Below are positions 23,578 to 48,802 of a stretch of 64,000 bases of DNA, one piece after another. The position numbers were made by a program, and so were the translations under genes. Where the stretch lies: positions 23,183 to 87,182 of the forward strand of contig JAMCYS010000015.1 of NCBI GenBank assembly GCA_023473795.1. Reading direction: 5' to 3'. Position 1 is the stretch's first letter. Each line of letters opens with the position of its first letter. The notes under the pieces were generated by a model that was not told the origin of the DNA, ran no database searches, and saw nothing but the letters and a program-made list of their open reading frames with translations. The stretch is from Chloroflexota bacterium. GTDB lineage: Bacteria > Chloroflexota > UBA6077 > FW602-bin22 > JAMCYS01.

Positions 23578-24378
23578 GTGCCTGATCCGAGTTCCGGTAC
23601 TCGCAAATGGGGAATGGTCATAGATCTCGACCGCTGCAACGGCTGTGAGGCCTGCGTGGTCGCCTGCCGGGTGGAGAACAACGTCGCCGTCGCGGGCGCC
23701 GACGAATGCGGCAAGGGCCGGCAAGCCTATTGGATCCGGGTGGAGCGGTATTGGCACGGGGAGTTCCCAAACGTGCGGGCCAGTTTCATGCCCATTCTCT
23801 GCCAGCAATGTCAGAACGCGCCCTGCGAGCCTGTTTGTCCGGTGTATGCTTCCTATCACGACCGCGCCGAGCAGGTCAACGCGCAGATCTACAACCGCTG
23901 CATCGGCACCCGCTACTGCGCTAACAACTGCCCGTACTACGTGCGCTTCTTCAACTGGTTCGATTACTGGTTCGACCCGGTGGTGCCTACGATCAACGTG
24001 GCCTATACCAACCCGATGCGCATGGGCCTCAACCTGGATCCGCGCCGCAACCAACTCAACCCGGACGTCACGGTGCGCAGCCGGGGCGTCATGGAGAAGT
24101 GTACTTTCTGCATCCAGCGGATCCGCAGGGCTAGGTTGGACGTGATCAAACAGGGCGGCTTCCAGAGCGCGGACGGCATCGAACACGTCAAGGTCCCGGA
24201 CGGAGCTGTGCAGCCTGCCTGCGTGCAAACTTGCCCGACGGGGGCCCTGGTCTTCGGCGACCTCAGCGATCCCGAGAGCGCCGTTTCGAAGCTGGCGACC
24301 AGCGAGAGACGGTTCCGGCTGCTTGAGGAGCTTGGCACCGAGCCGGTGGTGATCTATCTCAAGGAGCTACGGCCGTGA
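23578..24378 (+). CDS. ActB2-like 4x4Fe-4S ferredoxin subunit
   Basis: MVIDLDRCNGCEACVVACRVENN, CQQCQNAPCEPVCP, CIGTRYCANNCPYYVR, CVQTCPTGALVFGDL; GTG start. Confidence 0.88.
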   Translation: MPDPSSGTRKWGMVIDLDRCNGCEACVVACRVENNVAVAGADECGKGRQAYWIRVERYWHGEFPNVRASFMPILCQQCQNAPCEPVCPVYASYHDRAEQVNAQIYNRCIGTRYCANNCPYYVRFFNWFDYWFDPVVPTINVAYTNPMRMGLNLDPRRNQLNPDVTVRSRGVMEKCTFCIQRIRRARLDVIKQGGFQSADGIEHVKVPDGAVQPACVQTCPTGALVFGDLSDPESAVSKLATSERRFRLLEELGTEPVVIYLKELRP

Positions 24379-25742
24379 GAGAGGAACCGGTCCATATCAG
24401 CGACGCCCAGATCAACGAAGACCTCACGCGCTCGTTGCGCCGTCCCAGCCTCCTTTTCGTATTGGTCATCCTTGCCCTACTGGTTGTGCTGGGGGTGGGC
24501 GTGATCCTTTACGTGTACATGGTGCTTAGCGGCATGGGCGTGGCCGGTATCAACCGCCCGGTGCAGTGGGGCCTGTTCATCGCCAGCTTCGTCTTCTGGA
24601 TCGGCCTTTCCCACTCGGGCACGCTAATCTCGGCCATTCTGCGCCTGACGCAAGCCGAGTGGCGGCGGCCCATCACCAGGGGCGCCGAGGCGATGACCGT
24701 GTTTACAGTGGCCATGGGTGCCCTCTACCCTCTCATCCACCTGGGGCGCGTCTGGAAGTTCTACTACATCATCCCCATCCCCGACGGCCGCGGCCTGTGG
24801 CCAAACTTCCGCTCTCCGCTGGTGTGGGACTTCATGGCCATAACCACCTACCTCACCGGTAGCCTGCTCTATCTGTACTTGCCGATGGTGCCAGATATGG
24901 CCGTGCTGCGCGACCGGTCCACCGGTCTACGCCGGCAGCTGTACACCCTGCTGTCGCTGGGCTGGCGGGGCACCGAGCAGGAGTGGCGCCACCTGCACCG
25001 GACACTGGGCGTATTCATGGTAGTGATTCTGCCCGTCGCCGTGTCAGTACACTCCATCGTCTCCTGGGACTTCGCGATGGCCATAGCGCCGCCTACGTGG
25101 CACTCGACCATCTTCGCGCCCTACTTCGTCGCTGGCGCCATCTACTCAGGCCTGGCGCTGGTGGTGACGATCATGTGGTTGCTGCGCTGGGGCTTCCATC
25201 TGGAGAACTACCTGCGGGCCGACCAGTTCAACAACCTCGGCAAGATGCTCTTCATGATGTCCATCATCTGGTTCTACTTCTGGTTCTCGGATGCCCTCAC
25301 GACTTGGTACGGCCGCGTGCCGGCTGAGTTCGAGACGCTACGGCAGACGATACTGGGGCCGTTTCTGCCCTTCTTCGTCACTATGATCCTCTGCAACTTC
25401 GTCATCCCCTTCGCGACTCTGGGCTTCCGCCGCGTGCGGACGACGGCCGTCGGCTTCGTCGTGTCGCTGTTGATCAACGTGGGGATGTACTGCGAACGCT
25501 TCCTAATCGTGGTGCCGGGCCTGGCGCACGGCCGCCTGCCCTTCAACTGGCGCGACTACGCGCCGACCTACGTCGAGATCGGGATCATCGCCGCCACGTT
25601 TGCCGGCTTCATTCTCTTGTACCTGCTCTTCACCAGATTCTTTCCGGCCGTCGCCATCTGGGAGATCAAAGAGGGGCAGTTGTTGCGCTCGACGCGGGAC
25701 GTGGCCGGCGTGAAGCTGCCGACAATCACGAGGACCGAGTGA
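24375..25742 (+). CDS. actC: NrfD/PsrC-like polytopic membrane subunit (ActC-like)
   Basis: GINRPVQWGLFIASFVFWIGLSHSGTLISAILRL, multiple TM helices, position in cluster. Confidence 0.88.
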   Translation: MREEPVHISDAQINEDLTRSLRRPSLLFVLVILALLVVLGVGVILYVYMVLSGMGVAGINRPVQWGLFIASFVFWIGLSHSGTLISAILRLTQAEWRRPITRGAEAMTVFTVAMGALYPLIHLGRVWKFYYIIPIPDGRGLWPNFRSPLVWDFMAITTYLTGSLLYLYLPMVPDMAVLRDRSTGLRRQLYTLLSLGWRGTEQEWRHLHRTLGVFMVVILPVAVSVHSIVSWDFAMAIAPPTWHSTIFAPYFVAGAIYSGLALVVTIMWLLRWGFHLENYLRADQFNNLGKMLFMMSIIWFYFWFSDALTTWYGRVPAEFETLRQTILGPFLPFFVTMILCNFVIPFATLGFRRVRTTAVGFVVSLLINVGMYCERFLIVVPGLAHGRLPFNWRDYAPTYVEIGIIAATFAGFILLYLLFTRFFPAVAIWEIKEGQLLRSTRDVAGVKLPTITRTE

Positions 25743-25806
25743 TGGGCCAGCAGCAGCGAGCGGCAACCGGCAGGTACGCGCCCGCGGGCGCGAGCGGGAG
25801 GAGACG

Positions 25807-26361
25807 ATGAGCGCGTCGAGGAGCAGTGTAACCAACATAGTAGGCGTCTTCGGCAACGTTGAAGCGGCTAGCCAGGCAACCTACCAGCTTGCCCATAGCG
25901 GCTTCTCGCGCGACAACATGACCGTGATGACCGCAGAGCCCTATCCGCTTGGCGCCTTTGCCACCCGCACCAAGAAGTCTTTCATCCACTACCTATCCCT
26001 GTTGGGCGGGGCCGGTGGCTTGTTGACTGGTCTGGCCTTCGCCGCCGGCACGGCCCTGTTGTACCCTCTGCCCACGGGGGGCAAGCCCATCGTCGCCTGG
26101 CCAACGGTCGGCGTCATAACGTACGAGTTCACCATGCTGGGGATCATCATTTTCACGACGCTGGCCTTTCTCTTCTTCGCCAGGCTGCCCCGTCGCCAGC
26201 CGGGACTGTACGTGCCTAGCGTCACGGCGGGCAAGATCGCAGTGGTGGTGCCCTGCCGGGGCGAGGAACGGGCCGTCGTGGCGGAGAGAATGCTGCAGGT
26301 ATCAGGCGCCGAGGAGGTGTACCGGCGCGACACTCCCGCGCGGAGGTGGGACGAACTATGA
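25807..26361 (+). CDS. actD: ActD-like DUF3341 membrane protein
   Basis: NIVGVFGNVEAASQATYQLAHSGFSRDNMTVMTAEPYP and two hydrophobic helices; position in cluster. Confidence 0.82.
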   Translation: MSASRSSVTNIVGVFGNVEAASQATYQLAHSGFSRDNMTVMTAEPYPLGAFATRTKKSFIHYLSLLGGAGGLLTGLAFAAGTALLYPLPTGGKPIVAWPTVGVITYEFTMLGIIIFTTLAFLFFARLPRRQPGLYVPSVTAGKIAVVVPCRGEERAVVAERMLQVSGAEEVYRRDTPARRWDEL

Positions 26362-26858
26362 GAGCATGGAAGCCGGGGCGGTGGTTGGTATCTCCTCGAA
26401 CTCTGCTGCTCGCCGTGGCGCTGGCGGGAGGGCTCTTGCTTTCAGCCTGCGGCGACATGATGGCGCTGCAACCAGCCTACCAGCGGCAAGATTACCCCAT
26501 TCTGCCCTTCCCAACCAATTCGGTGCCGGTTAGCGGGGCACAGACAGCTTGGACGCAGCAGACGGCGACGGCAGCGACCAACCCACTGAACCAACAGCAG
26601 GCGGCGCCGGCCGGCAAGGAACTCTATCAGGTGAACTGCCGGATGTGCCACGGCAACGACGCCAAAGGCACGGGCGCCATCGCCTATGCCTTTCCGCCCC
26701 ACCCGGCCGACCTGACCAGCGCCCAGGTACAGCAGCAATCGGACGGACAGCTCTTCTGGGCGATCACCAACGGTTTCGGCCGCATGCCGGCCTTCGGCAA
26801 GCGGCTGACGGACACGCAGCGCTGGCAACTGGTGAGCTACGTGCGGACGCTGAAATAG
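26358..26858 (+). CDS. actE: Monoheme cytochrome c lipoprotein, ActE-like
   Basis: LLLSACGD lipobox, CRMCHGNDAKGTG heme site. Confidence 0.82.
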   Translation: MRAWKPGRWLVSPRTLLLAVALAGGLLLSACGDMMALQPAYQRQDYPILPFPTNSVPVSGAQTAWTQQTATAATNPLNQQQAAPAGKELYQVNCRMCHGNDAKGTGAIAYAFPPHPADLTSAQVQQQSDGQLFWAITNGFGRMPAFGKRLTDTQRWQLVSYVRTLK

Positions 26859-26903
26859 ACTTGCGTACGCCGTCTGCCCCATCCGTGCAGACGGGGGCTA
26901 CTC

Positions 26904-27608
26904 TTGTCGGACCGCCAAGCGCGTGGTACATTGGAGTCATCGGCGGATGCTAGCCGGTTGGCAGACAAGGCCCAAGAATGGATCGGTTGGAGGCAGAGAG
27001 CGATGCAACGAGGCGGCCCCTGGCTGTTTGTTCTGGCGCTTCTAGCAGCTCTGGTTCTCGGGGGCCTAGCTTCGACGGTAGCCTGGGAATACGAGAACCG
27101 AGCTACAGCTGCGGCGCAGCCGCCCTCGGCCCTACCGGCGGCGCCCGCAGCCCAGGCCACAGTGGCACCGACCCCTCTACCGCCCACTATCAGGGTACCG
27201 GTGGGAACAAGCGCCGCTCTACCACCCACCGTCGGCGTGCCGGCGGCGACGAGTGCCGCTGGCGCCCCGGCAGCATCGGTCACGGCCACACTGGCGGCGA
27301 CAGCACCGCCGACCAGGCAGGCGATTCCCACCGCGCCGGTCGCCACAGCCACACCGGCCGCGCCCCCGGGCGGCAACGTGGCCAATGGCCGACAGCTGTT
27401 TCAGCAAAACTGCAACGCCTGCCATCCCAACGGCGACCAGGGCGTCGGCCCCGCGCTACATGGAGCGGGCTTCCGTAGCCAGTTCCCCACCGACGCGAGC
27501 GTCACTCAGATCATCGCCAATGGCCGGGACGGGATGCCCGGCTTCGGCAGCAGGCTATCGGCACAGCAGATCGGGGACATCGTCGCTTACATACGTTCTC
27601 TGCCTTAG
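26904..27608 (+). CDS. Membrane-anchored monoheme cytochrome c with Pro/Ala/Thr linker
   Basis: CNACHPNGDQGVGPALHG; N-terminal TM; low-complexity linker. Confidence 0.82.
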   Translation: MSDRQARGTLESSADASRLADKAQEWIGWRQRAMQRGGPWLFVLALLAALVLGGLASTVAWEYENRATAAAQPPSALPAAPAAQATVAPTPLPPTIRVPVGTSAALPPTVGVPAATSAAGAPAASVTATLAATAPPTRQAIPTAPVATATPAAPPGGNVANGRQLFQQNCNACHPNGDQGVGPALHGAGFRSQFPTDASVTQIIANGRDGMPGFGSRLSAQQIGDIVAYIRSLP

Positions 27609-27700
27609 AGGTAACCAGGCCAGACCCCGGGTAGATCGGGAGCCTACCCACTTTCCCTTGGCCACGGACCCAAGGCCAGCGTTGCCTATTTTCCGGCGAG

Positions 27701-28216
27701 GTGTTAGGCGTGGCTACAGACAGTGAAGCAGACGATTCCGGAGAAGAGGGGCGCCGGAGGTTCCTCAGTCGAACGGCCGCGGTGCTTGTCACCTTCATAG
27801 GCGGGGCACTGGCGGTGCCTACCATCGGGCATATCGTCTCGCCAACCCTGAAACCGGCAGATAACCCGCTCGTGCCACTGGGCAGCGTCGATCAGTTTGA
27901 GATCGGCAAGCCGCTTAAAGTGGATTTCCTCTACTACAAGAATGACGGATGGGTGCAAGAGCGCAACTCAGCCTCGGCCTGGGTAGTGCGCAAGAGCCAG
28001 TCGGAATTTGTGGTCTTCGACCCAGCCTGCACCCATCTCGGCTGCCCTTATGGATGGAGTGCGGAGCAAAACCAGTTCGTTTGCCCCTGCCACGGCGGCG
28101 TATTCAGTATCGATGGCACGGTTCTCGCCGGGCCCCCGCCCCGACCGCTCGACCGGTTCCAGAATAGCGTCCAGGACGGCAAGCTCTTCATAAGGCAGGT
28201 GGTGCAGCGTGGCTGA
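27701..28216 (+). CDS. Rieske 2Fe-2S protein
   Basis: CTHLGCPY and CPCHGGVFSIDG. Confidence 0.92.
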   Translation: MLGVATDSEADDSGEEGRRRFLSRTAAVLVTFIGGALAVPTIGHIVSPTLKPADNPLVPLGSVDQFEIGKPLKVDFLYYKNDGWVQERNSASAWVVRKSQSEFVVFDPACTHLGCPYGWSAEQNQFVCPCHGGVFSIDGTVLAGPPPRPLDRFQNSVQDGKLFIRQVVQRG

Positions 28217-28868
28217 TCTGTACGATTGGGTGAACGATCGCCTGGGAATCATGCCGGGATTGGTTTACGTCGTCCGCCGCAAGATACCGGCCGACGTAAA
28301 CTGGTTGTACACGTTCGGCAGCGCCACGCTGTTCCTGTTCCTCGTGCAGGCGCTCACGGGTGGCTTGCTGGCCATTTACTACTCTCCCAGCCCCGACCAC
28401 GCCTACGCCAGCATCCAGTACATAATGAACGACGTGACCTACGGCAGTCTGGTGCGTGGCATCCACCACTGGTCGGCCAGCGGAATGGTGCTGTTAGTGG
28501 TGGCCCACATGCTGAGGGTCTTCTTCACCGGAGCGTACAAGTATCCACGCGAGATGAGCTGGATGGTGGGTGTCGTGCTGCTCGTACTCACCCTGGCTTT
28601 CGGCTTCACCGGCTACCTCCTGCCCTGGGACGAGAAGGCGTACTGGGCCACGGTCGTTGGCACCAACATAGCCGGCGCCATGCCGTTAGTCGGCGACTGG
28701 ACAGTGCGCTTGCTGCGAGGTGGCGCCGACCTCGGAGTCCTGACGCTGAACCGGTTCTACGCCATGCACGTTATGCTGCTGCCGATGGCGGCTACCGTAC
28801 TTATCTCCGTGCACGTTGCCATGGTTATCCGCCAAGGGATCAGTTATCCGCCGCGCAGGGATGAGTAG
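28209..28868 (+). CDS. Cytochrome b, N-terminal (cyt b6-like) subunit
   Basis: GIHHWSASGMVLLVVAHMLRVFFTGAYKYPREMSWMVGV, FTGYLLPWDEKAYWA, FYAMHVMLLPMAATVLISVHVAMV. Confidence 0.92.
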   Translation: MADLYDWVNDRLGIMPGLVYVVRRKIPADVNWLYTFGSATLFLFLVQALTGGLLAIYYSPSPDHAYASIQYIMNDVTYGSLVRGIHHWSASGMVLLVVAHMLRVFFTGAYKYPREMSWMVGVVLLVLTLAFGFTGYLLPWDEKAYWATVVGTNIAGAMPLVGDWTVRLLRGGADLGVLTLNRFYAMHVMLLPMAATVLISVHVAMVIRQGISYPPRRDE

Positions 28869-28874
28869 CCAGCT

Positions 28875-29840
28875 ATGGACGAACACGACAGACTAGACCA
28901 ACGCACAACTTACGCCGGCCGGAAGCAAGAGCAGCTGGCACACGGTCATTCATTCTTCCCCGACACGGTCGTAAAAGACATCGTGGTGGCTGCCGTCATT
29001 TTGGTCGTACTGATGGTACTCGCCGCCACGCAAGGCGCCCCGTTGGAGCTGGAGGCCAATCCTACCGGGTCCGCCAAGCCGCCACGCCCCGAATGGTACT
29101 TTCTCTTCCTCTTTGAGGCACTCAAGTTCCTGCCCGGTAACCTTGAATGGCTAGGGGCTATCCTGGTACCGGGCATCGCGCTGGTTGTGCTGTTCCTGCT
29201 GCCGCTCTTCGACAGGAGCCCCTACCGCCACCCGCTGAAGAGGCCGCTAGCCACAGGTGTGGCTTCGCTGGCCATAGTTGCGGTGGTCGGCTTGACGGCG
29301 CTGGCAGCCACGGCACCCGAACCCGCGGCGGTGGGCGCCCCTCAACCCGGCGCTGGCCTCACCCCACTCGAGCAAGCCGGTCAGCGTGTCTACCAGACAC
29401 ATAGCTGCCCGATATGTCACAAGATCAACGGCGTAGGTGGCAACATCGGCCCGGACCTGACGACCGTGGGGCTACGCCTGGATGCCTCGTGGCTGGTGGC
29501 CCACCTACAGCGGCCGGCCGAGATTGCGCCGGGAACAGTCATGCCCCAGATCACGCTGACGAGCGATGAGTTGATGTCGTTGACGGCCTACTTGTTGACG
29601 CTCAAGCAGGCGGAAACCCGCACACCAGAGCAAATCGGCGCCGCCTTGTTCGCTGTGTACTGCAACTCGTGCCATCCGAACGGCCAGGCCGGGATCGGTC
29701 CCAAGTTGTTGGGCGTTCCGGCGGACCAGGTAGCCCAGAAAGTCAGGAGCGGCGGGGGTGGTATGCCCGCTTTCCACACTGCCGAGCTGTCGGACGATCA
29801 ACTGGCGGATGTCGTTGCCTACACCCAGACACTTCGCTAG
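28875..29840 (+). CDS. Cytochrome b C-terminal (subunit IV-like) domain fused to diheme cytochrome c
   Basis: PRPEWYFLFLFEALKFLPG (PEWY) plus CPICH and CNSCH. Confidence 0.9.
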   Translation: MDEHDRLDQRTTYAGRKQEQLAHGHSFFPDTVVKDIVVAAVILVVLMVLAATQGAPLELEANPTGSAKPPRPEWYFLFLFEALKFLPGNLEWLGAILVPGIALVVLFLLPLFDRSPYRHPLKRPLATGVASLAIVAVVGLTALAATAPEPAAVGAPQPGAGLTPLEQAGQRVYQTHSCPICHKINGVGGNIGPDLTTVGLRLDASWLVAHLQRPAEIAPGTVMPQITLTSDELMSLTAYLLTLKQAETRTPEQIGAALFAVYCNSCHPNGQAGIGPKLLGVPADQVAQKVRSGGGGMPAFHTAELSDDQLADVVAYTQTLR

Positions 29841-29976: not shown

Positions 29977-30627
29977 TTGGCAATACTCTCGTGGACTTGG
30001 CTCGGCGTGGCTGGCCTAGTCCTGGCGACCGAGCGGCAGGCCGTGGCGGTCGACCCTTACCTCAGCCGACTGTCGTCGCGACAGCTGTGGTTGAGAGCCG
30101 CACGCAGCCAGTCTGAACTCGTGGCGCGGGCCATCCCCCGCTGCGACCAGGTGTTGGTCACCCACGCCCACGTCGACCACGTACTAGACGTGCCGGGGCT
30201 GGCGCGGCGCACCGGCGCCCTCGTCTATGGCTCGGCCAACGTCGGTCGGGTATTGGCGGCCGGAGGGGTGCCGGTACGTCAATTCCAGCAGCTGGCGGTA
30301 GGGGAGCTTCTGGAGCTCGGGGACTTTGCCGTAGAGGTCCTGGCTGCCGTACACGGCACCGTCTTGAGCCGACCGGTTCTGCCAGGCACTACGCCCGAGC
30401 GCAAAGCGCCCCTCAGGGCAGACGATTACAGGCTAGACGAGTACTATGGCTTTCTCATCAACGTCGCAAACCTGCGGCTCTTGGACTGGCCCAGTGAGAG
30501 GGCAGGCCCCGCGCCGGAGGCGGATGTAGCTACGCCTGGATGCCTCGTGGCTGGTGGCCCACCTACAGCGGCCGGCCGAGATTGCGCCGGGAACAGTCAT
30601 GCCCCAGATCACGCTGACGAGCGATGA
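29977..30627 (+). pseudogene. Truncated MBL-fold hydrolase copy 1, C-terminus replaced at duplication junction
   Basis: Identical to copy 2 up to PAPEADV then frame runs into duplicated cytochrome sequence out of frame. Confidence 0.8.
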
Positions 30628-30898
30628 GTTGATGTCGTTGACGGCCTACTTGTTGACGCTCAAGCAGGCGGAAACCCGCACACCAGAGCAAATCGGCGCC
30701 GCCTTGTTCGCTGTGTACTGCAACTCGTGCCATCCGAACGGCCAGGCCGGGATCGGTCCCAAGTTGTTGGGCGTTCCGGCGGACCAGGTAGCCCAGAAAG
30801 TCAGGAGCGGCGGGGGTGGTATGCCCGCTTTCCACACTGCCGAGCTGTCGGACGATCAACTGGCGGATGTCGTTGCCTACACCCAGACACTTCGCTAG
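30554..30898 (+). pseudogene. 5'-truncated duplicate of the cytochrome c domain
   Basis: Matches the C-terminal 114 residues of the 28875-29840 product; lacks TM segments and the CPICH heme. Confidence 0.8.
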
Positions 30899-41425: not shown

Positions 41426-41740
41426 CTAGCCGCGCCGCAGCTGCCGCCAGGCAGCGACGGCGAGCGAGCGCAGCGCAGTCCAGGCGGCCGCGCCGCCGAT
41501 CAGGGCGGCAGTGGCGACCGGTTCGCGGGCGGCGGCAGCAACCGCTACCGGACCGGCACCGAGCACCTCAGCCGCCTGGCTGTCGTCCACGTCGAAATCG
41601 ACTCCGTTCTGGCGCAAAAGGTCAAGCTCCGCTTGTGAGAGGATGCCCACCTTGCCCAAGAAGGACACCCGAAACGGGTAGTTCTCTGGCTGATCGAACA
41701 AGGCCTGCCGCTGAGCGGGACTCATCTGCGAGTACAGCAT
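41426..41740 (-). CDS. Small hypothetical protein at the end of the CydA-like/Rieske operon
   Basis: MLYSQMSPAQRQALFDQPENYPFRVSFLGKVGILSQAELDLLRQNGVDF...; ATG at 41740. Confidence 0.6.
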   Translation of the reverse strand: MLYSQMSPAQRQALFDQPENYPFRVSFLGKVGILSQAELDLLRQNGVDFDVDDSQAAEVLGAGPVAVAAAAREPVATAALIGGAAAWTALRSLAVAAWRQLRRG

Positions 41741-41747
41741 CGCCCTC

Positions 41748-42353
41748 TCACCGCCCCTGATCTTCAGCCGCCTGGGGGCGGCCAAAGACAGTGCCCTCGC
41801 CAGGATAAACCACCGCGCCCGCGCTCTGTTGCCGCGCCAGACTGCGGGCGTAGGCGATGACCTGCCAGCGTGCCTGAACGTCGAACCGACCTTGCCAATC
41901 TGGCATGACCGTCTGCGGCACGCCCTCGCTGACCCACCAGAAGACGTAGTCTTCGTGGTTCTGGAAGGCATTGACCATCGGCGGAGCGCCAAAGTCGGCA
42001 GGCTTCGGTTCGAGGTAGGCAGCCATAGGGCCGAGTCCGTTGCCCCTAGCACCGTGGCAATCGAGACAGGACGGCTTGTAGGCGGAGTACAGCGCTCGCC
42101 CGACCGCCAGCGCCTGGGCGTCGTTCGGCGCATAGGGGTTGCGCAAGCCCCGGTAAGCCGGCGGGATGTCGCCGCCGATGTAGCCGGGCGGTGGTCCCTC
42201 TCCAATGAGCGGCCGGGGCTGCCAGGGGACGTAGCAGCCCGACAGGCCCAAGCAGCACAGCAGCAAGGCAAGTGGCCAGACGTGGCGACCTGCCCAGCGC
42301 CCCGACTCGGCCGGTGCGCCCTTTCTGGTTAGGTGCCCGCCCGGAGCAGTCAT
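41748..42353 (-). CDS. Monoheme cytochrome c lipoprotein
   Basis: CLGLSGC lipobox-like, CLDCHGARGNGLGPMAA. Confidence 0.85.
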   Translation of the reverse strand: MTAPGGHLTRKGAPAESGRWAGRHVWPLALLLCCLGLSGCYVPWQPRPLIGEGPPPGYIGGDIPPAYRGLRNPYAPNDAQALAVGRALYSAYKPSCLDCHGARGNGLGPMAAYLEPKPADFGAPPMVNAFQNHEDYVFWWVSEGVPQTVMPDWQGRFDVQARWQVIAYARSLARQQSAGAVVYPGEGTVFGRPQAAEDQGR

Positions 42354-43711
42354 ACGTCACCTACCTTGGGGGCAGGCAGGCCCCGTTCGGGTTCACCTAC
42401 CGGCGCTGATTGGAAGTGCGACGCGGGACCGGCCGGGGTCGGAGTGGGCAGCAAGGTCGGGAAGGCCTCCGGCTGATCCAGCTGCTGCTGGTAGTAGATG
42501 AGGAAAGGAACGCGCGAGTTCTCGCGGATGAAACCCATCAGGGCCATCATGAAACTGGCGAAGACCGCCAGGGTCAGGAGCAGGTACTGCGCCTGTCGCC
42601 CTCTGCCCCCCAAATAGCCCCAACGCAACCCCTTGCGCAGCCGCCCCACGTAGGTTGCCACGGCGAAGATCGCGCTGAGCGTCAGTCCCGCGAACGCGAT
42701 GTACTTCCAGGGCTGCATCGCCCCCAGTGGGTTGACCCAGTTGATCCACATGTATTCCTGGCTGGGACCGATTACCCTCGGCATCAGTAACACCACGGCA
42801 GAGAGCGCGGCGACGGCCAGTAGGGACTGCATCCGCCTGTAGCCCGAGCGGTCGCTCTTGCCCAACTGCCACAGCATGTAGAGCATGCTCAGGAGGAACA
42901 GCACGCTCAGGAAGGCCACCTGCAGCAGGAAGAGCCAGGAGTTGTGGGTGCGCATCATAGCGTTGAAGGCGCCCGGTGAGACGGCCCTGATTTCCTCTAC
43001 GTACTCGATGCCGATCGCCGGCTGCAGAAAAAGAAACCCCAGGCCGGCGAGGAGACCCAGGCTGCCCAGCCAATCGTAGTAGGCGTGGTCCGCCGGCTCA
43101 CGCGAGCGGAGGGCGCGGAAGGCGGCATAGCCGGCGACCAGGAAGCCGGCAAAGGAGATGTCGCCCACTATCCGATGCATGTCCAGGGGAATGGCCGTGG
43201 CGTTGAACAAGACGCGCAGAAACTCCTCCGGGGGGGCAGGCGTAAGCATGTAGCTGGCAACCACGTCGATCAGGCTCTGCTGGAAGTAGGCCGCCACGAT
43301 CAACGCCCCGCCAAGGGAGAGGTGCACCCAGCGAAAACGCTCCAGATGCTCCCAGGTGAAATACCAGGGGAGCAGGTAGAGGATGGTCAGGGCGAACGTA
43401 ATACCCTCAAGGAAGAGGGCCCAGAAGCTCGTACGCAGGATGGTGTACCAGAAAGTGGGAAAGAAGATCGTGGCGAAGAACATCACCATGAAGGCGAGCA
43501 CCGCGCCGGTGCTGTAGACCAAGGCGGCCGTCTTGCCCAGGCCCCGCGCCACCCGCATCAGATTGTCGCCCCCGAACACCAGGGCGAAGAACTCGCAGGC
43601 CACGGCGATCGTGAAGATGCCGATGAGAAAGGCGGCGAACTGGACGTGGGTGAGGAAGAGGAGAGCAATGACGAAACGGCGGGCCAGCTCCGGGACCGCG
43701 GTTGGTTCCAC
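42350..43711 (-). CDS. CydA-like (cytochrome bd oxidase subunit I family) membrane protein
   Basis: FLTHVQFAAFLIGIFTIAVACEFFALV, NATAIPLDMHRIVGDISFAGFLVAGYAAFRAL; no CydB seen nearby. Confidence 0.78.
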   Translation of the reverse strand: MEPTAVPELARRFVIALLFLTHVQFAAFLIGIFTIAVACEFFALVFGGDNLMRVARGLGKTAALVYSTGAVLAFMVMFFATIFFPTFWYTILRTSFWALFLEGITFALTILYLLPWYFTWEHLERFRWVHLSLGGALIVAAYFQQSLIDVVASYMLTPAPPEEFLRVLFNATAIPLDMHRIVGDISFAGFLVAGYAAFRALRSREPADHAYYDWLGSLGLLAGLGFLFLQPAIGIEYVEEIRAVSPGAFNAMMRTHNSWLFLLQVAFLSVLFLLSMLYMLWQLGKSDRSGYRRMQSLLAVAALSAVVLLMPRVIGPSQEYMWINWVNPLGAMQPWKYIAFAGLTLSAIFAVATYVGRLRKGLRWGYLGGRGRQAQYLLLTLAVFASFMMALMGFIRENSRVPFLIYYQQQLDQPEAFPTLLPTPTPAGPASHFQSAPVGEPERGLPAPKVGDV

Positions 43712-43750
43712 TGCTTACCTCCTTGCTACCGAGATGGCTGGCGCCGGGGC

Positions 43751-44944
43751 CTAGCCGGGAGAACCGACGAAGTCGTAATTGAAGACCCGCGAGGCGCCTA
43801 ACAGGGCCAGGACCAGGATCGAGAGAATGACAACCGCCATGAACATCACCGCTAGGGGCCGTGACTGGGGCTTCAGGGCCGGGTTGCGATCCAACCAGGG
43901 CAGCAAATAGAAGACGACCACCATCACAGTGGGCACCCCGATCACCGCGAAGGGGATCAGCCAGGCCCCGGGGAACAGCAGCAGTAGCTGGTCGAGGAAC
44001 AGCCAGAACCACATCGATGAGGGCGCGTACGTAGTGGTCGAAGGGTCGATAGGCTCCTCGATCGGCACCCGGAAGGTCAGGGCGATGAGAAACACGACGA
44101 GAAAGATGGCGCCGGTGACCACGGCCTCTTTGAACATGTGGTGGGGGAAGAACCAGGTGGTGCGCCAGGGCAGATTCACCTTGCGACTTTCCGGACTCAG
44201 CACCTCGCGGCGGACCTTTGCCTGCGAGGCCAGTTCGTCCTCGTCGGGCGGCTCAGCCTCTGCCGGCTCCGGTTCGTAGTTGACCCAGGAGCCAAACTGC
44301 CCTTGAATCACGACCAGGGCGACATGAACGGTGGCCAGCACCACCAGGCCCACCGGCAGCAGCCAGACGTGAAAGGTGAAGGTCCGAGTAAGCGTGAGCG
44401 AGCTGATGGTCTCGCCGCCCCGCCAGAGAGCCGCCAATCCCGGGCCGATGATGGGGGTCCAACCCGCGATGGTCGTCCCGACCACGGCGTCGAAGTAGCC
44501 GCCTTGGTCCCAGCGCAGAATGCCACCGGTGAAGGCAGTCGCTACCATCAGGATGAGCAGGGTGACACCCAAGACCCAGGCCAGCTCTCGCGGCGCCTTG
44601 TAGGCCGCCGAGAAGAAGGTACGGGCCATGTGAGCCCCGATCAGAAGAACCAGCGCCACCATGTTCCAGTAATGGAGTCCCCGCACCAGCCAGCCCAGGT
44701 AGACCTCGTTTTGAATGTAGGACACGGACTCCCGGGCGTGGTCCCAGGAGGGCACGTAGAAGAACATCAAGAAGATGCCGGTCGCGATCTGAATGAAGAC
44801 GAGGACGAAAAGTGCCGCTCCCAGGGTGTACCACCAGCCACCGCGCTCTGGCACGGGGTCGCTGAGAAGCCGGTTCAGGGTCCGCCGCCAGGGCAGACGA
44901 CGGTCCAGGCCATCGACCAGTGGCGCGAAGAGCCTGTACAACAC
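43751..44944 (-). CDS. Full-length cytochrome b with altered Qo motif
   Basis: GLHYWNMVALVLLIGAHMARTFFSAAYKAPRELAWVLGV, FTFHVWLLPVGLVVLATVHVALV; SMWF where PEWY is expected. Confidence 0.88.
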   Translation of the reverse strand: MLYRLFAPLVDGLDRRLPWRRTLNRLLSDPVPERGGWWYTLGAALFVLVFIQIATGIFLMFFYVPSWDHARESVSYIQNEVYLGWLVRGLHYWNMVALVLLIGAHMARTFFSAAYKAPRELAWVLGVTLLILMVATAFTGGILRWDQGGYFDAVVGTTIAGWTPIIGPGLAALWRGGETISSLTLTRTFTFHVWLLPVGLVVLATVHVALVVIQGQFGSWVNYEPEPAEAEPPDEDELASQAKVRREVLSPESRKVNLPWRTTWFFPHHMFKEAVVTGAIFLVVFLIALTFRVPIEEPIDPSTTTYAPSSMWFWLFLDQLLLLFPGAWLIPFAVIGVPTVMVVVFYLLPWLDRNPALKPQSRPLAVMFMAVVILSILVLALLGASRVFNYDFVGSPG

Positions 44945-44956
44945 GGTTCGTACCTC

Positions 44957-45472
44957 CTAGGTCGAAACGCCCCGGCGGACGATGCGGTTGGCGACGTACA
45001 GATCGCTGCCCTGCACCCGGGTGGGCAGGAGCGGCAGGTCCGCGGCGGGCGGGCCGCCCATTAGCTGACCCCAGCGGTCGTACATCCCCCCGTGACAGGG
45101 ACAAAGGATCTGCTGGCGCCAGGCCAGCCAGCGCACGGAGCAGCCCATGTGCGTGCAGGTGTTGGAGAAGGCCAGGATTTCCTCGCCGCGCCGAATGACG
45201 AACACTCCCGTGATGATCCGGTAACCGGCTGCTCTATCCTCCGGCTGGAAAGCCACGCGGAACTCCTTCGGTTCTGCATCCACGACCTCGTCCAGGGCGC
45301 AGAGCCTGACCCACTCCTCCGGCAGACGTTTGGTGACGGCCTCAAAGAAGTAACCAATGAGCGGCACGGCCACGGCCAGGGTCACCGCGCCCCCGATACC
45401 CGTGATGGCCATTTCGCGCAGGAAGCGCCGGCGTCCCGATGGCCGCACGTAAGCACCTTCCGAGCGCATCAT
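44957..45472 (-). CDS. Rieske 2Fe-2S protein
   Basis: CTHMGCSVRW, CPCHGGMYDRWG; N-terminal RRRFLREMAITGIGGAVTLAVA. Confidence 0.92.
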   Translation of the reverse strand: MMRSEGAYVRPSGRRRFLREMAITGIGGAVTLAVAVPLIGYFFEAVTKRLPEEWVRLCALDEVVDAEPKEFRVAFQPEDRAAGYRIITGVFVIRRGEEILAFSNTCTHMGCSVRWLAWRQQILCPCHGGMYDRWGQLMGGPPAADLPLLPTRVQGSDLYVANRIVRRGVST

Positions 45473-45693
45473 TGCTGACCCCAGAAGAAGGCTTGATAGA
45501 CGAAGGTGACGAAGAGCAGCAAGAAGAGCAGCCCCGTATTGATCACAACGCCGATCAATATCAGCGCCGAACGTCGATGCTCGTGCCAGACTTTCCCAAG
45601 CTGGGAGAGCACCACGCCCAACGGCAACAGGCCGAGGAAGAAGAGAAACCCACCTAGAACCACCACGAAGACAACCGCCGGCTCGTTCTTCAT
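45469..45693 (-). CDS. Small two-helix membrane protein in cytochrome operon
   Basis: VVFVVVLGGFLFFLGLLPLGVVL and LILIGVVINTGLLFLLLFVTFVYQAFFW; overlaps Rieske start. Confidence 0.65.
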   Translation of the reverse strand: MKNEPAVVFVVVLGGFLFFLGLLPLGVVLSQLGKVWHEHRRSALILIGVVINTGLLFLLLFVTFVYQAFFWGQQ

Positions 45694-45704
45694 AGCGCTG
45701 CTCC

Positions 45705-47075
45705 TCAGGGTCTCACCAACTCCTGCGCCTGTTCGGGTGGCATCTTCTGATAGATCAGCCAGTCCCCCCGGGCGCTTTCGCGGATGATACCCATCGTCAC
45801 GAATATAGCGACGGCCGCCAGGCCCAGGGCCACGAGGACCGCCGGGCGCTGCCAGCCACCAGGTACAGGTCCACCCTGCCTGCGCTCGCGCCAGTAGAGC
45901 ACCAGGTTGGCGATTGTGACTAGACCGAAGACGTAGAGGGCGATGTATTTCCAGGGTCGCATCTGGCCCAAGGGCAGTTCTTTAGGGATAACGGCCAGAA
46001 GCAGCGCCAGCGCCAGGACGAGCAGAGACCAACGCAGCCAGGTGCGCGTCCGGACCCGCCGGGCGCCGTCGGTAGGCGTGGGCAGGCTAACGACTAAGTA
46101 CAGGCTGATGAGGAAGAAGATCGCCCCCAGCAGGCCGATCTGGATGAGAAACAGCCAGCCCTTCGCGCCTGCCATCATGTTGAACCAGGCACCGGGAGAT
46201 GCTTCGAGGATGCGCCGGACGTAGTACCAGCCGAACAGGGGCTGGGTCAACGTCACCAGGCCCCCTAGCAGCAAAGTCGCCTCGAGAACCCAGTAGCGGT
46301 AGTCTCGCTGCCCCTCGCTGGGTCGGAAACGGCCCCGGAAGACGAGCAGGCCGGCGCCGACGAGGGCGCCCAGGACCAGTGGGCCGTAGGAAAGGTTGCC
46401 CACGTGGCGATGCAGCGTCTCCGCCAGCCAGCTGGGGTTGAAGGCGGCCGCCCAGAGTTGGTCGACGCCGCCGGCCGGGGTGAGCTGGTGGGAGCTGAAC
46501 ATCACGATCAAGGTAATAAACGCCATCGCGGAGAGGGCAAATGTCCAGCCAATGGCGTTGTGCAGGCCGCGCCGGCCGCGCAGCGAATTCCAGGTCCCGT
46601 AGTAGGCGTAGGCAGTGATGGTCATCAGTAGCCAGAGCACGCCGGCGATTATTACCACCGGATAGAAGAACAAAGAGGTGAGGTAGCCCCAGAGGCGGGG
46701 ATATAGTCCCCAGATGGCGACTAGACCGAAGGCAGCCCAGGTCGCCCCCCAGGCGTAGAGGCGCTCGAGAACGGTGGAGAGCTGGCGGGCAAGGTCGCCC
46801 CAGCGCTCATACCCGCGCCGCCAGCCGATCACCTCGGCCACGGGCGCGACCATGGCTATGCCGATGAGAAGGGCCACGGTCGTGATGTGGACCAGGAAGA
46901 TCACGCCGACGAGCCAGCGGCCGCCGAGCGCGGGAACCGAGACGGTGAATTCCGGTACCGTGCTCGCTACCTCCAGTGGCGGGATGCCGGTCGGGTCGCC
47001 CGCTCGACCCGCGACTCGCGTCCCACGCTCGCCTTGGCGGGTTAGGGCCGACCTGCCTAGGCCGACTATCTCCAA
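45705..47075 (-). CDS. CydA-like membrane protein (second paralog)
   Basis: FLVHITTVALLIGIAMVAPVAEV, LAETLHRHVGNLSYGPLVLGALVGAGLL; overlong N-terminus possible. Confidence 0.75.
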   Translation of the reverse strand: MEIVGLGRSALTRQGERGTRVAGRAGDPTGIPPLEVASTVPEFTVSVPALGGRWLVGVIFLVHITTVALLIGIAMVAPVAEVIGWRRGYERWGDLARQLSTVLERLYAWGATWAAFGLVAIWGLYPRLWGYLTSLFFYPVVIIAGVLWLLMTITAYAYYGTWNSLRGRRGLHNAIGWTFALSAMAFITLIVMFSSHQLTPAGGVDQLWAAAFNPSWLAETLHRHVGNLSYGPLVLGALVGAGLLVFRGRFRPSEGQRDYRYWVLEATLLLGGLVTLTQPLFGWYYVRRILEASPGAWFNMMAGAKGWLFLIQIGLLGAIFFLISLYLVVSLPTPTDGARRVRTRTWLRWSLLVLALALLLAVIPKELPLGQMRPWKYIALYVFGLVTIANLVLYWRERRQGGPVPGGWQRPAVLVALGLAAVAIFVTMGIIRESARGDWLIYQKMPPEQAQELVRP

Positions 47076-47250
47076 TGTAGCAGACCGACCTCAACAAATG
47101 CCTCAACGTTTCCGCCCTTTCATCACCACGGAAGAGGCACGCCAGCTCGACCGGTTAGTCAGCCTGGCCCAGTTCCTGCAGCGCTACATTGTGGCGCTCG
47201 CCTTGGGCAACGAAGACCGGCCAACCAGCGACCAGGCCAAGGAGAGAACG

Positions 47251-48069
47251 ATGACGACAGCAAGATTGGGGCGCCTAGTCGGACTGTGCCTACTAGCCTT
47301 GACGCTGGCCACTGCTTGCGCCCCCTCGACGCCGAACTTCCCCATCGCCCTGACGCCCGCGCCGCCTCTACGGGCGACGCCTCGTCCGCCGACCGCCGTC
47401 ACCCCGTTGCCCCCCGTTTCCCCACCAGCCGCGCCGCTGCCGACGCCGGTCACAGGCAATTTGCCGCCGGTAGACGAGAACTCAGCCGTGCGGAACGTTC
47501 TCGCCGGTATGAGTGAACTCCGTCGCCGGATGCAGCAAATGGCGTTGGGGGCCCCCCAGGCGGACGAGCTAGTGAGCGTTACTCAGCAAACGGTCTCCCT
47601 CATGGCCGCCGCTAGCCAGGTCATGCCTCAGATGAACCTACTGCAGAGAGAGCAGGCCTTCCAGCAGGAGGTCTCCCTGGTCGACGGTCTGATGCGGATG
47701 AGCAGCTCTCACGAGCAGCTTACGCTGGGGCACGGCCCGAGCGCTGAAACGAGCGGAATCGGCACGCTCCTGCCCCTCACGGTCGCGGGGATGCCGCGCA
47801 GTCTACCCCAGGGCGGGCTCAGCCCGCTCGACCAGCTGATTGGCCAGGAAATGGCGATCGTCGACGACCGCGCCAGCCAACTCGCTCGGGGCGAAGTAAC
47901 GGGCTCGGAACTGCTGCCTACCCTCTCCTCATTTCGCTCGACGCTGCTTACCACCCGCCAGCTGAGCAGCCGACTGTCGCCACAACAGGCGCAGCAGGTG
48001 GCAGCCCGAGCGGCGGTGACAATGCAATCGCTGGTGAACCTGGTGCGCAGCTTCGGAATGGAGTCGTAG
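47251..48069 (+). CDS. Lipoprotein of unknown function
   Basis: LCLLALTLATACAP lipobox, Pro-rich linker, helical C-terminal domain; internal ATG at 47251 preferred. Confidence 0.65.
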   Translation: MTTARLGRLVGLCLLALTLATACAPSTPNFPIALTPAPPLRATPRPPTAVTPLPPVSPPAAPLPTPVTGNLPPVDENSAVRNVLAGMSELRRRMQQMALGAPQADELVSVTQQTVSLMAAASQVMPQMNLLQREQAFQQEVSLVDGLMRMSSSHEQLTLGHGPSAETSGIGTLLPLTVAGMPRSLPQGGLSPLDQLIGQEMAIVDDRASQLARGEVTGSELLPTLSSFRSTLLTTRQLSSRLSPQQAQQVAARAAVTMQSLVNLVRSFGMES

Positions 48070-48070
48070 G

Positions 48071-48802
48071 ATGCACTGGCAGCCCGGCGGTCTGCTGCTG
48101 GCCGACGCCGATGTCGTCTATAGACAGCGTCTGGCACACCGCTTGGCCGAGTCGGGCTTTGCGTGCCGCGAGGTGGGCGACGGCCGGCGGTTGCTGGCCG
48201 AGCTGGAGCGCAGCACCACTCAACTGGTGGTTCTGGACGTGGAGCTGCCATTGCTGGGGGGGCTGGAACTCTGCGAGCAAGTGAGGCGACGTTGCAGCGC
48301 ACCTATGATGGTGTTGACGGAGCTGAACGAGCCGGCTACCAGGCTGCGGGTTCTCGAATTGTACGCCGACGACTACGTACTGAAGAAGACCGACCTCGCC
48401 GAGGTGGCGGCGCGCGTGCGCTGCCTCTTCCGCCGCAGTCAACCGCCGGCCCTGTTGGGCAGCCAGGTCTACGTCGACGGCTGCCTCAGCCTGAACCTCG
48501 ACTGCCGCTTGGCCCACACGCCGGCCGGCTCCCATCGCTTGACCCGCACCGAAGCCAGGCTGCTGCGCTTGCTTCTGGAGAACGCCGGCCGCACGCTGCC
48601 TTCCTCTCTGCTACTGGAGCGGCTGTGGGGAGACGGCGGCCACGCCAGCGGCAGCCTTTGGGAGTACGTGCGGCGAGTTCGACGCAAGATCGGCGACGAT
48701 GCCGAGAAGCCGCGCTACCTCGTCAACGAACCGGGCTTGGGCTACAGTTTCCGTAGGCCAGCCGCCCGCCAGGACGCCCACGCCGTGGAACGGCAGTCCT
48801 GA
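48071..48802 (+). CDS. OmpR-like response regulator
   Basis: LVVLDVELPLLGGLELCEQVR receiver, YADDYVLKKTD, LTRTEARLLRLLLENAGRTLPSSLLLERLWG...VRRVRRKIGDDAEKPRYLVNEPGLGYSF. Confidence 0.85.
   Translation: MHWQPGGLLLADADVVYRQRLAHRLAESGFACREVGDGRRLLAELERSTTQLVVLDVELPLLGGLELCEQVRRRCSAPMMVLTELNEPATRLRVLELYADDYVLKKTDLAEVAARVRCLFRRSQPPALLGSQVYVDGCLSLNLDCRLAHTPAGSHRLTRTEARLLRLLLENAGRTLPSSLLLERLWGDGGHASGSLWEYVRRVRRKIGDDAEKPRYLVNEPGLGYSFRRPAARQDAHAVERQS

Follow-up and report, generated by a model that had tools for sequence, protein, structure and literature searches.

A conserved gene cassette joining Rieske and cytochrome b genes with a pair of CydA-like proteins in Chloroflexota

What kind of respiratory complex could be encoded by an operon that holds two CydA-like genes, a Rieske gene and a cytochrome b gene? 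The question is raised by positions 41426-47075 of the window, the whole 64,000-nucleotide stretch of Chloroflexota DNA analysed here, for which the original prediction had proposed seven minus-strand genes forming a hybrid of bd-like and bc-like parts. ORF coordinates and Pfam matches confirmed this operon of collinear minus-strand genes, given here in operon order:

45705..47075, minus strand: CydA-like protein A, CydA'-type, with an apparently degenerate active site (Pfam PF01654, 27 bits; residue table)
45469..45693, minus strand: small protein of 74 aa with two predicted TM helices, the fifth core gene (same-place ORF in related cassettes)
44957..45472, minus strand: Rieske [2Fe-2S] protein, CTHMGC...CPCHGG (Pfam PF00355; ligand alignment)
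43751..44944, minus strand: cytochrome b, b6-type N-terminal plus C-terminal domain (Pfam PF00033, PF00032; alignment)
42350..43711, minus strand: CydA-like protein B, putative catalytic subunit (Pfam PF01654, 34 bits; residue table; fold search)
41748..42353, minus strand: mono-haem cytochrome c with a lipobox-like N-terminus, LSGC (Pfam PF13442)
41426..41740, minus strand: 104-aa hypothetical protein (conserved with the cytochrome c in three genomes)

Neighbouring genes overlap or are separated by at most 39 nt: the two-TM gene follows A after 11 nt and overlaps the Rieske gene by 4 nt, cytochrome b comes 12 nt after the Rieske gene and B 39 nt after cytochrome b, B and the cytochrome c gene overlap by 4 nt, and the last gene is 7 nt further on, with GAGAGGG ahead of its ATG. 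The ORF of this last gene begins at 41740 and encodes 104 aa; the 281-aa ORF is not the gene. The sole standard in-frame start of A is the TTG at 47075; a GGAGG and homology suggest that the true start is perhaps near 46960. No promoter-like site was found by a simple sigma-70 scan, and no CydB is encoded within the operon. Pfam scores are 142 bits for Cytochrome_B, 47 bits for Rieske and 34 bits for Cytochrome_CBB3; Cyt_bd_oxida_I is matched twice, by A and by B, both barely over its cut-off of 26.2 bits.

In cytochrome bd, the two active-site haems depend on H19, E99 and E445, and haem b558 is bound by H186 together with M393. These positions were tallied, by alignment to E. coli CydA, in 49 distinct B and 43 distinct A proteins of cassettes of this kind. 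B keeps H19 (48/48 scorable proteins), E99 (49/49), H186 (49/49) and E445 (48/48). A proteins keep H19 (43/43) and H186 (42/43), have lost E99 and E107 in all 43, and retain E445 in only 29 of 42. The window's own A has H19 and H186 without E99 or E107, and its B has H19, E99, H186 and E445. M393, the haem b558 Met, is lost from both window proteins and survives in 2 of 49 B proteins and in no A protein. The quinol-site positions 252 and 257 (K252 and E257 in canonical CydA) fall in gaps in 49/49 B and 41/43 A proteins. The alignment places a Q-loop or GRQPW motif in neither of the window's CydA-like proteins, and both the A and B groups are without it. The absence of CydB and of GRQPW held true as originally described. 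Because B keeps the active-site ligands and A is without E99, B looks like a catalytic CydA and A like its degenerate CydA' partner. AlphaFold models of A and B (mean pLDDT 83.8 and 78.2) match CydA chains ahead of CydB chains in a fold search of the PDB, both with 7oy2_C as the best match (E 1.7e-7 and 1.7e-8; query TM-scores 0.64 and 0.57), and hhalign shows the two profiles to be homologous (100%). At the sequence level neither A nor B retrieved a CydA from the PDB: one search was empty and the other gave one weak unrelated match. From its ligands, one may reason that B reduces O2; the CydA fold itself is no proof of this, since bd-like proteins are also present in anaerobic anammox bacteria (PMC3578206).

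On the bc side, the Rieske ligands (CxH/CxxH) and the four cytochrome b haem histidines are kept in all cassettes aligned, the window included. The Qo motif is more variable. Nearly all soil Chloroflexi and Dormibacterota, locus L052 and Rubrobacter keep the Qo Glu as PEWF or PEWY, L105 has PQWF, and the Glu of PEWY is lost in the window and L051 (both PSSMWF) and in L075 (PASIWF). Quinol oxidation with bifurcation at the Qo site, the function first suggested for this operon, is plausible for most family members given the conserved PEWF, and weaker for the window's own operon because its cytochrome b has lost the Qo Glu.

Scanning named genomes with the B alignment yielded 52 loci, whereas a single-protein scan of named genomes had found nothing. 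The neighbourhood count was limited to the 38 loci, found with B alone, that have 3.6 kb or more of DNA in front of B. In 36 of the 38, A, Rieske and cytochrome b lie upstream on the same strand, which argues that the grouping is more than chance; the remaining two, from Nitrospira, have A without Rieske or cytochrome b. By record title, the carriers are Chloroflexi, Dormibacterota (Ca. Aeolococcus and Ca. Amunia among them), a Bacillota MAG, Rubrobacteraceae and a Myxococcales MAG. Between A and Rieske, nearly all Chloroflexota and Dormibacterota cassettes, and also L075, encode a two-TM protein (73-104 aa), frequently with an ATGA overlap; its reading frame is broken in one locus (L082). As this gene recurs in the A-Rieske-cytochrome b-B cassettes, we define the core as five genes. 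This core is found in dozens of Chloroflexota and Dormibacterota MAGs, with related cassettes in Rubrobacter MAGs and one Myxococcales-labelled MAG; Rubrobacter keeps the order A-Rieske-cytochrome b (split)-B with only ~50 nt from A to Rieske. Many uncultured soil and sediment bacteria have this respiratory gene set. Neighbours of 660-895 aa upstream of A in Dormibacterota and soil Chloroflexi were considered as molybdenum enzymes and rejected, being Usp+PCP_red proteins.

The seven-gene version, with the cytochrome c and the last small gene, occurs only in the window, in L051/L074 (Chloroflexi FK_Sedi_B_Bin.63, from the order to which the window's genome also belongs) and in L075 (Myxococcales UBA5297 by bin label). 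The novelty, which had been placed in the arrangement, therefore does not lie in its uniqueness: the five-gene core is shared by dozens of MAGs and the full set by these two further genomes. A search for CxxCH ORFs within 3 kb on the cassette strand was negative at 46 of the 52 loci. When a cytochrome c1/f-type subunit was sought with Pfam, the window's cytochrome c proved to be a mono-haem lipoprotein of the CBB3 type. Behind the L051 operon come genes for a formate dehydrogenase of the selenocysteine type that has Fe-S and NrfD subunits; the window's genome contains no close match to it.

A tree of 47 CydA-like proteins separates an A clade (95/95) from a B clade (92/93), and each includes the matching protein of a Nitrospira pair (L109, L111). 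The Nitrospira pair comes after multihaem c, molybdopterin-type, NrfD and ActD-cytochrome c genes, the published context of OR-N5 CydAA' after alternative complex III in Nitrospirales (PMC12342949). A and B thus group with a pair in the OR-N5 context, and it is via that gene context that we tentatively assign them to OR-N; two CydA paralogues stand together without a quinol site, with the active-site ligands in one subunit (B), as in the OR-N type. Judged by this tree, the CydAA' pair of the cassette is closest to the one following alternative complex III in Nitrospira. The two share their A and B clades, the missing quinol site and a quinol-oxidising complex directly upstream, but in Nitrospirales the partner is alternative complex III instead of Rieske/cytochrome b, the two-TM gene is lacking and the pair is adjacent. 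All three trees (A, B and cytochrome b) recover a group made up of the window, L051 and L075, and L052 branches next to it; this agreement indicates a unit inherited together.

That CydA-like genes occur with bc components in other phyla, as the original prediction noted, is borne out by the Nitrospira literature, which also describes paired CydA-like proteins beside alternative complex III (PMC12342949, PMC6606698). In N. moscoviensis, bd-like_1, complex III_1, bd-like_2 and cytochromes c are clustered, and a supercomplex has been proposed (PMC6606698). This cluster (L153) resembles ours in holding CydA-like, cytochrome c, Rieske, cytochrome b and CydA-like genes together, yet it has several cytochromes c and a fused, longer CydA-like protein, its CydA-like proteins fall in another clade, and its cytochrome b groups with classical PetB (100/99). 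The CydA and cytochrome b trees thus reject it as the same cassette. Because the bc-linked Nitrospira cluster has other CydA and cytochrome b lineages, CydA-like proteins probably became linked to bc genes on at least two occasions, as far as the few Nitrospira sequences behind this suggest.

The operon is an additional chain in the window's genome and not the only one, because the genome also has CydAB, COX1, a classical Rieske/PetB/PetD set (window 27701-29840) and an alternative-complex-III-like group with ActD (24375-26858). Its canonical CydA scores 564 bits and is encoded on contig 24 beside a cydB of its own, truncated where the contig ends. This cydA-cydB is a separate pair with its own partner, which speaks against the possibility that the operon encodes canonical CydA served by a distant cydB. 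Among 20 cassette genomes, with absences scored on MAGs with one Pfam model, CydB (PF02322) is absent from 15, so a CydB borrowed from elsewhere in the genome was rejected as an explanation; COX1 is present in 18. No COX1 was found in the Rubrobacter MAG G303, a single MAG of no stated completeness. Families f19 and f29 carry a separate classical bc-COX1 cluster (its motifs checked in two f29 genomes), and their single class I cytochrome c lies on the contig of the classical cytochrome b and COX1, a few kb from that cytochrome b. Given this separate cluster, the cassette in f19 and f29 seems to be a second chain, complete in itself. Six f49 genomes, 89-93% complete, have COX1 and, as their only strong bc-type cytochrome b, that of the cassette; neither a Cytochrome_CBB3 match nor ActD was found, absence again being scored on MAGs with one Pfam model; the CuA subunit was found in all three f49 genomes checked for the CuA motif. 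The f49 pattern favours Rieske/cytochrome b passing electrons straight to the CydA pair, and it also allows the feeding of a CuA oxidase.

Gene content and ligand alignment support the view that the operon combines bc and CydA-like parts and is neither a conventional bd oxidase nor a bc1 complex. It shares with canonical cytochrome bd (CydAB, qOR family) the CydA fold and, in B, H19, E99, H186 and E445, but it has a second CydA-like protein instead of CydB and lacks the Q-loop/GRQPW and the haem b558 Met. With bc1/b6f-type complexes, such as the one at 27701-29840, it shares the four haem histidines, the Rieske ligands and, in most cassettes, PEWF; unlike them, the cassette adds CydA-like subunits, most members show no cytochrome c1/f gene nearby, and the Qo motif is lost in the window's lineage.

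Conserved gene order and common inheritance make it likely that the operon proteins form one complex. Our preferred reading, for which we judge the chances to be even, is a single membrane complex of Rieske/cytochrome b and an OR-N-type CydAA' pair that would carry electrons from quinol to O2 without a normal bd oxidase. Across the family, the cytochrome b/Rieske part would oxidise (mena)quinol, the Rieske protein would pass electrons to the CydA-type subunit B, and the two active-site haems of B would reduce O2, while A, its active-site Glu lost, would fill CydB's place in canonical enzymes. Transfer from Rieske to CydA may be direct in most members, since most encode no cytochrome c; the window's lineage adds a lipoprotein cytochrome c, which probably acts as a bridge or as the electron supply for the CydA pair. 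The analysis shows directly the gene content, its conservation, the pattern of ligands, the shared inheritance and the scarcity of cytochrome c genes around the cassettes; from these we infer complex formation, the electron path and O2 as acceptor. In Nitrospira this A-B pair stands behind alternative complex III, so that it appears to be paired with two unrelated quinol-oxidising complexes. A bolder version, which we put forward tentatively and with some doubt, is that the five-gene core is a bc-CydAA' supercomplex with no need of a cytochrome c, its Rieske protein directly reducing an O2-reducing CydA-type subunit, and that the window's lineage was rewired through cytochrome c after losing the Qo Glu.

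The CydA-like pair might instead not be a terminal oxidase, the operon encoding a modified bc complex that feeds another acceptor (e.g. a CuA oxidase via a cytochrome c or copper protein), with A and B as extra membrane subunits carrying haem or quinone sites. The frequency of COX1 among the cassette genomes would fit, as would the f49 genomes, where something must feed the CuA oxidase because no other strong bc-type cytochrome b and no ActD are present; a related bd-like protein without quinol ligands is also conserved in anammox bacteria (PMC3578206). We nevertheless find this rather unlikely: no B protein lacks any of its active-site ligands, of which a simple scaffold would have no need, COX1 in f19 and f29 has its own bc and cytochrome c genes, and the Rubrobacter MAG yielded no COX1.

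For the window's lineage only, a normal Q cycle may be missing, with the added cytochrome c as the entry or exit for electrons, a periplasmic or membrane dehydrogenase perhaps being their donor, and with cytochrome b/Rieske as a conduit or vestige. Loss of the PEWY Glu coincides with the cytochrome c and the last small gene in the same three genomes only, and the formate dehydrogenase behind the L051 operon could be such a donor. However, as these genomes belong to one clade, the correlation amounts to a single observation; the haem and cluster ligands are all still there, and nothing closely matching that dehydrogenase is present in the window's genome. Moreover, replacing the PEWY Glu in bc1 slows turnover and does not always abolish it. 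On balance we regard this idea as unlikely. Very unlikely, in our judgement, is a classical bc complex and CydA-like proteins that work independently and only happen to lie in one operon. CydA-like genes standing alone, with no bc genes beside them, do exist in the phylum and in the window's genome (contig 50), but the five-gene order is conserved over several families, 4-nt overlaps are frequent, and the A, B and cytochrome b trees agree.

Part of this picture is already published. The OR-N family, its missing quinol site and the idea of a cytochrome c donor have been described (PMC10839748, PMC13189123, PMC12342949), as have the bd-like and bc gene neighbourhood in Nitrospira (PMC6606698) and the quinol-site loss of bd-like proteins in Nitrospina (PMC3578206). 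The literature searched on Dormibacter or Chloroflexi CydA with Rieske gave no description of the cassette. The five-gene cassette, its two-TM gene, the missing cytochrome c gene and the Qo-Glu loss thus appear to be new, an earlier account in the survey of Murali et al. 2021 being possible. For the widespread OR-N bd-like proteins, the literature covered here treats composition, donor and activity as unconfirmed. The cassette, compact and conserved, encodes a candidate donor complex alongside the CydA pair. In f49, where no class I cytochrome c was detected, a direct Rieske-to-CydA route becomes testable. In abundant soil Chloroflexota and Dormibacterota, the cassette may be a main route from quinol to oxygen.

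Proteins combining universal-stress and PCP_red domains, often together with a rubredoxin-like domain, are recurrent neighbours of CydA-like genes. One also lies alongside the single CydA-like gene on contig 50 of the window's own genome, together with a cytochrome c. Their positions, and those of other features, are as follows.

L064, L065, L066 and L053 (cassette loci): universal-stress/PCP_red proteins, upstream of the CydA-like gene A
L071:7303-8505 (window's own genome): universal-stress/PCP_red protein
Window 47245-48802: divergent lipoprotein-like gene (plus strand) and OmpR-type response regulator, adjoining the operon start
Window 29450-29749: repeat copy, PetD-dihaem c gene end
Window 30508-30807: repeat copy, metal-dependent-hydrolase-like gene start

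In the closest seven-gene relative (L051), the operon is followed downstream by a formate-dehydrogenase-like alpha subunit gene, whose reading frame is broken by a UGA where selenocysteine usually lies (ARI*HSSSVPGLGASFGRGA), and then by genes for Fe-S and NrfD subunits (L051:3-5037). Three f49 cassette genomes (L175, L176 and L177) encode a CuA-type oxidase subunit II with CYEFCGxGHDQM, and no Cytochrome_CBB3-type protein was detected in these three.

The two repeat copies are 97% identical and spaced 1058 bp apart, reflecting either a tandem duplication or an assembly artefact. Positions 24375-29840 of the window hold a group resembling alternative complex III (NrfD-type, ActD, cytochromes c) and, immediately after it, a classical Rieske/PetB/PetD-dihaem c set with PEWY intact; the window therefore carries three quinol-oxidising modules within 25 kb.
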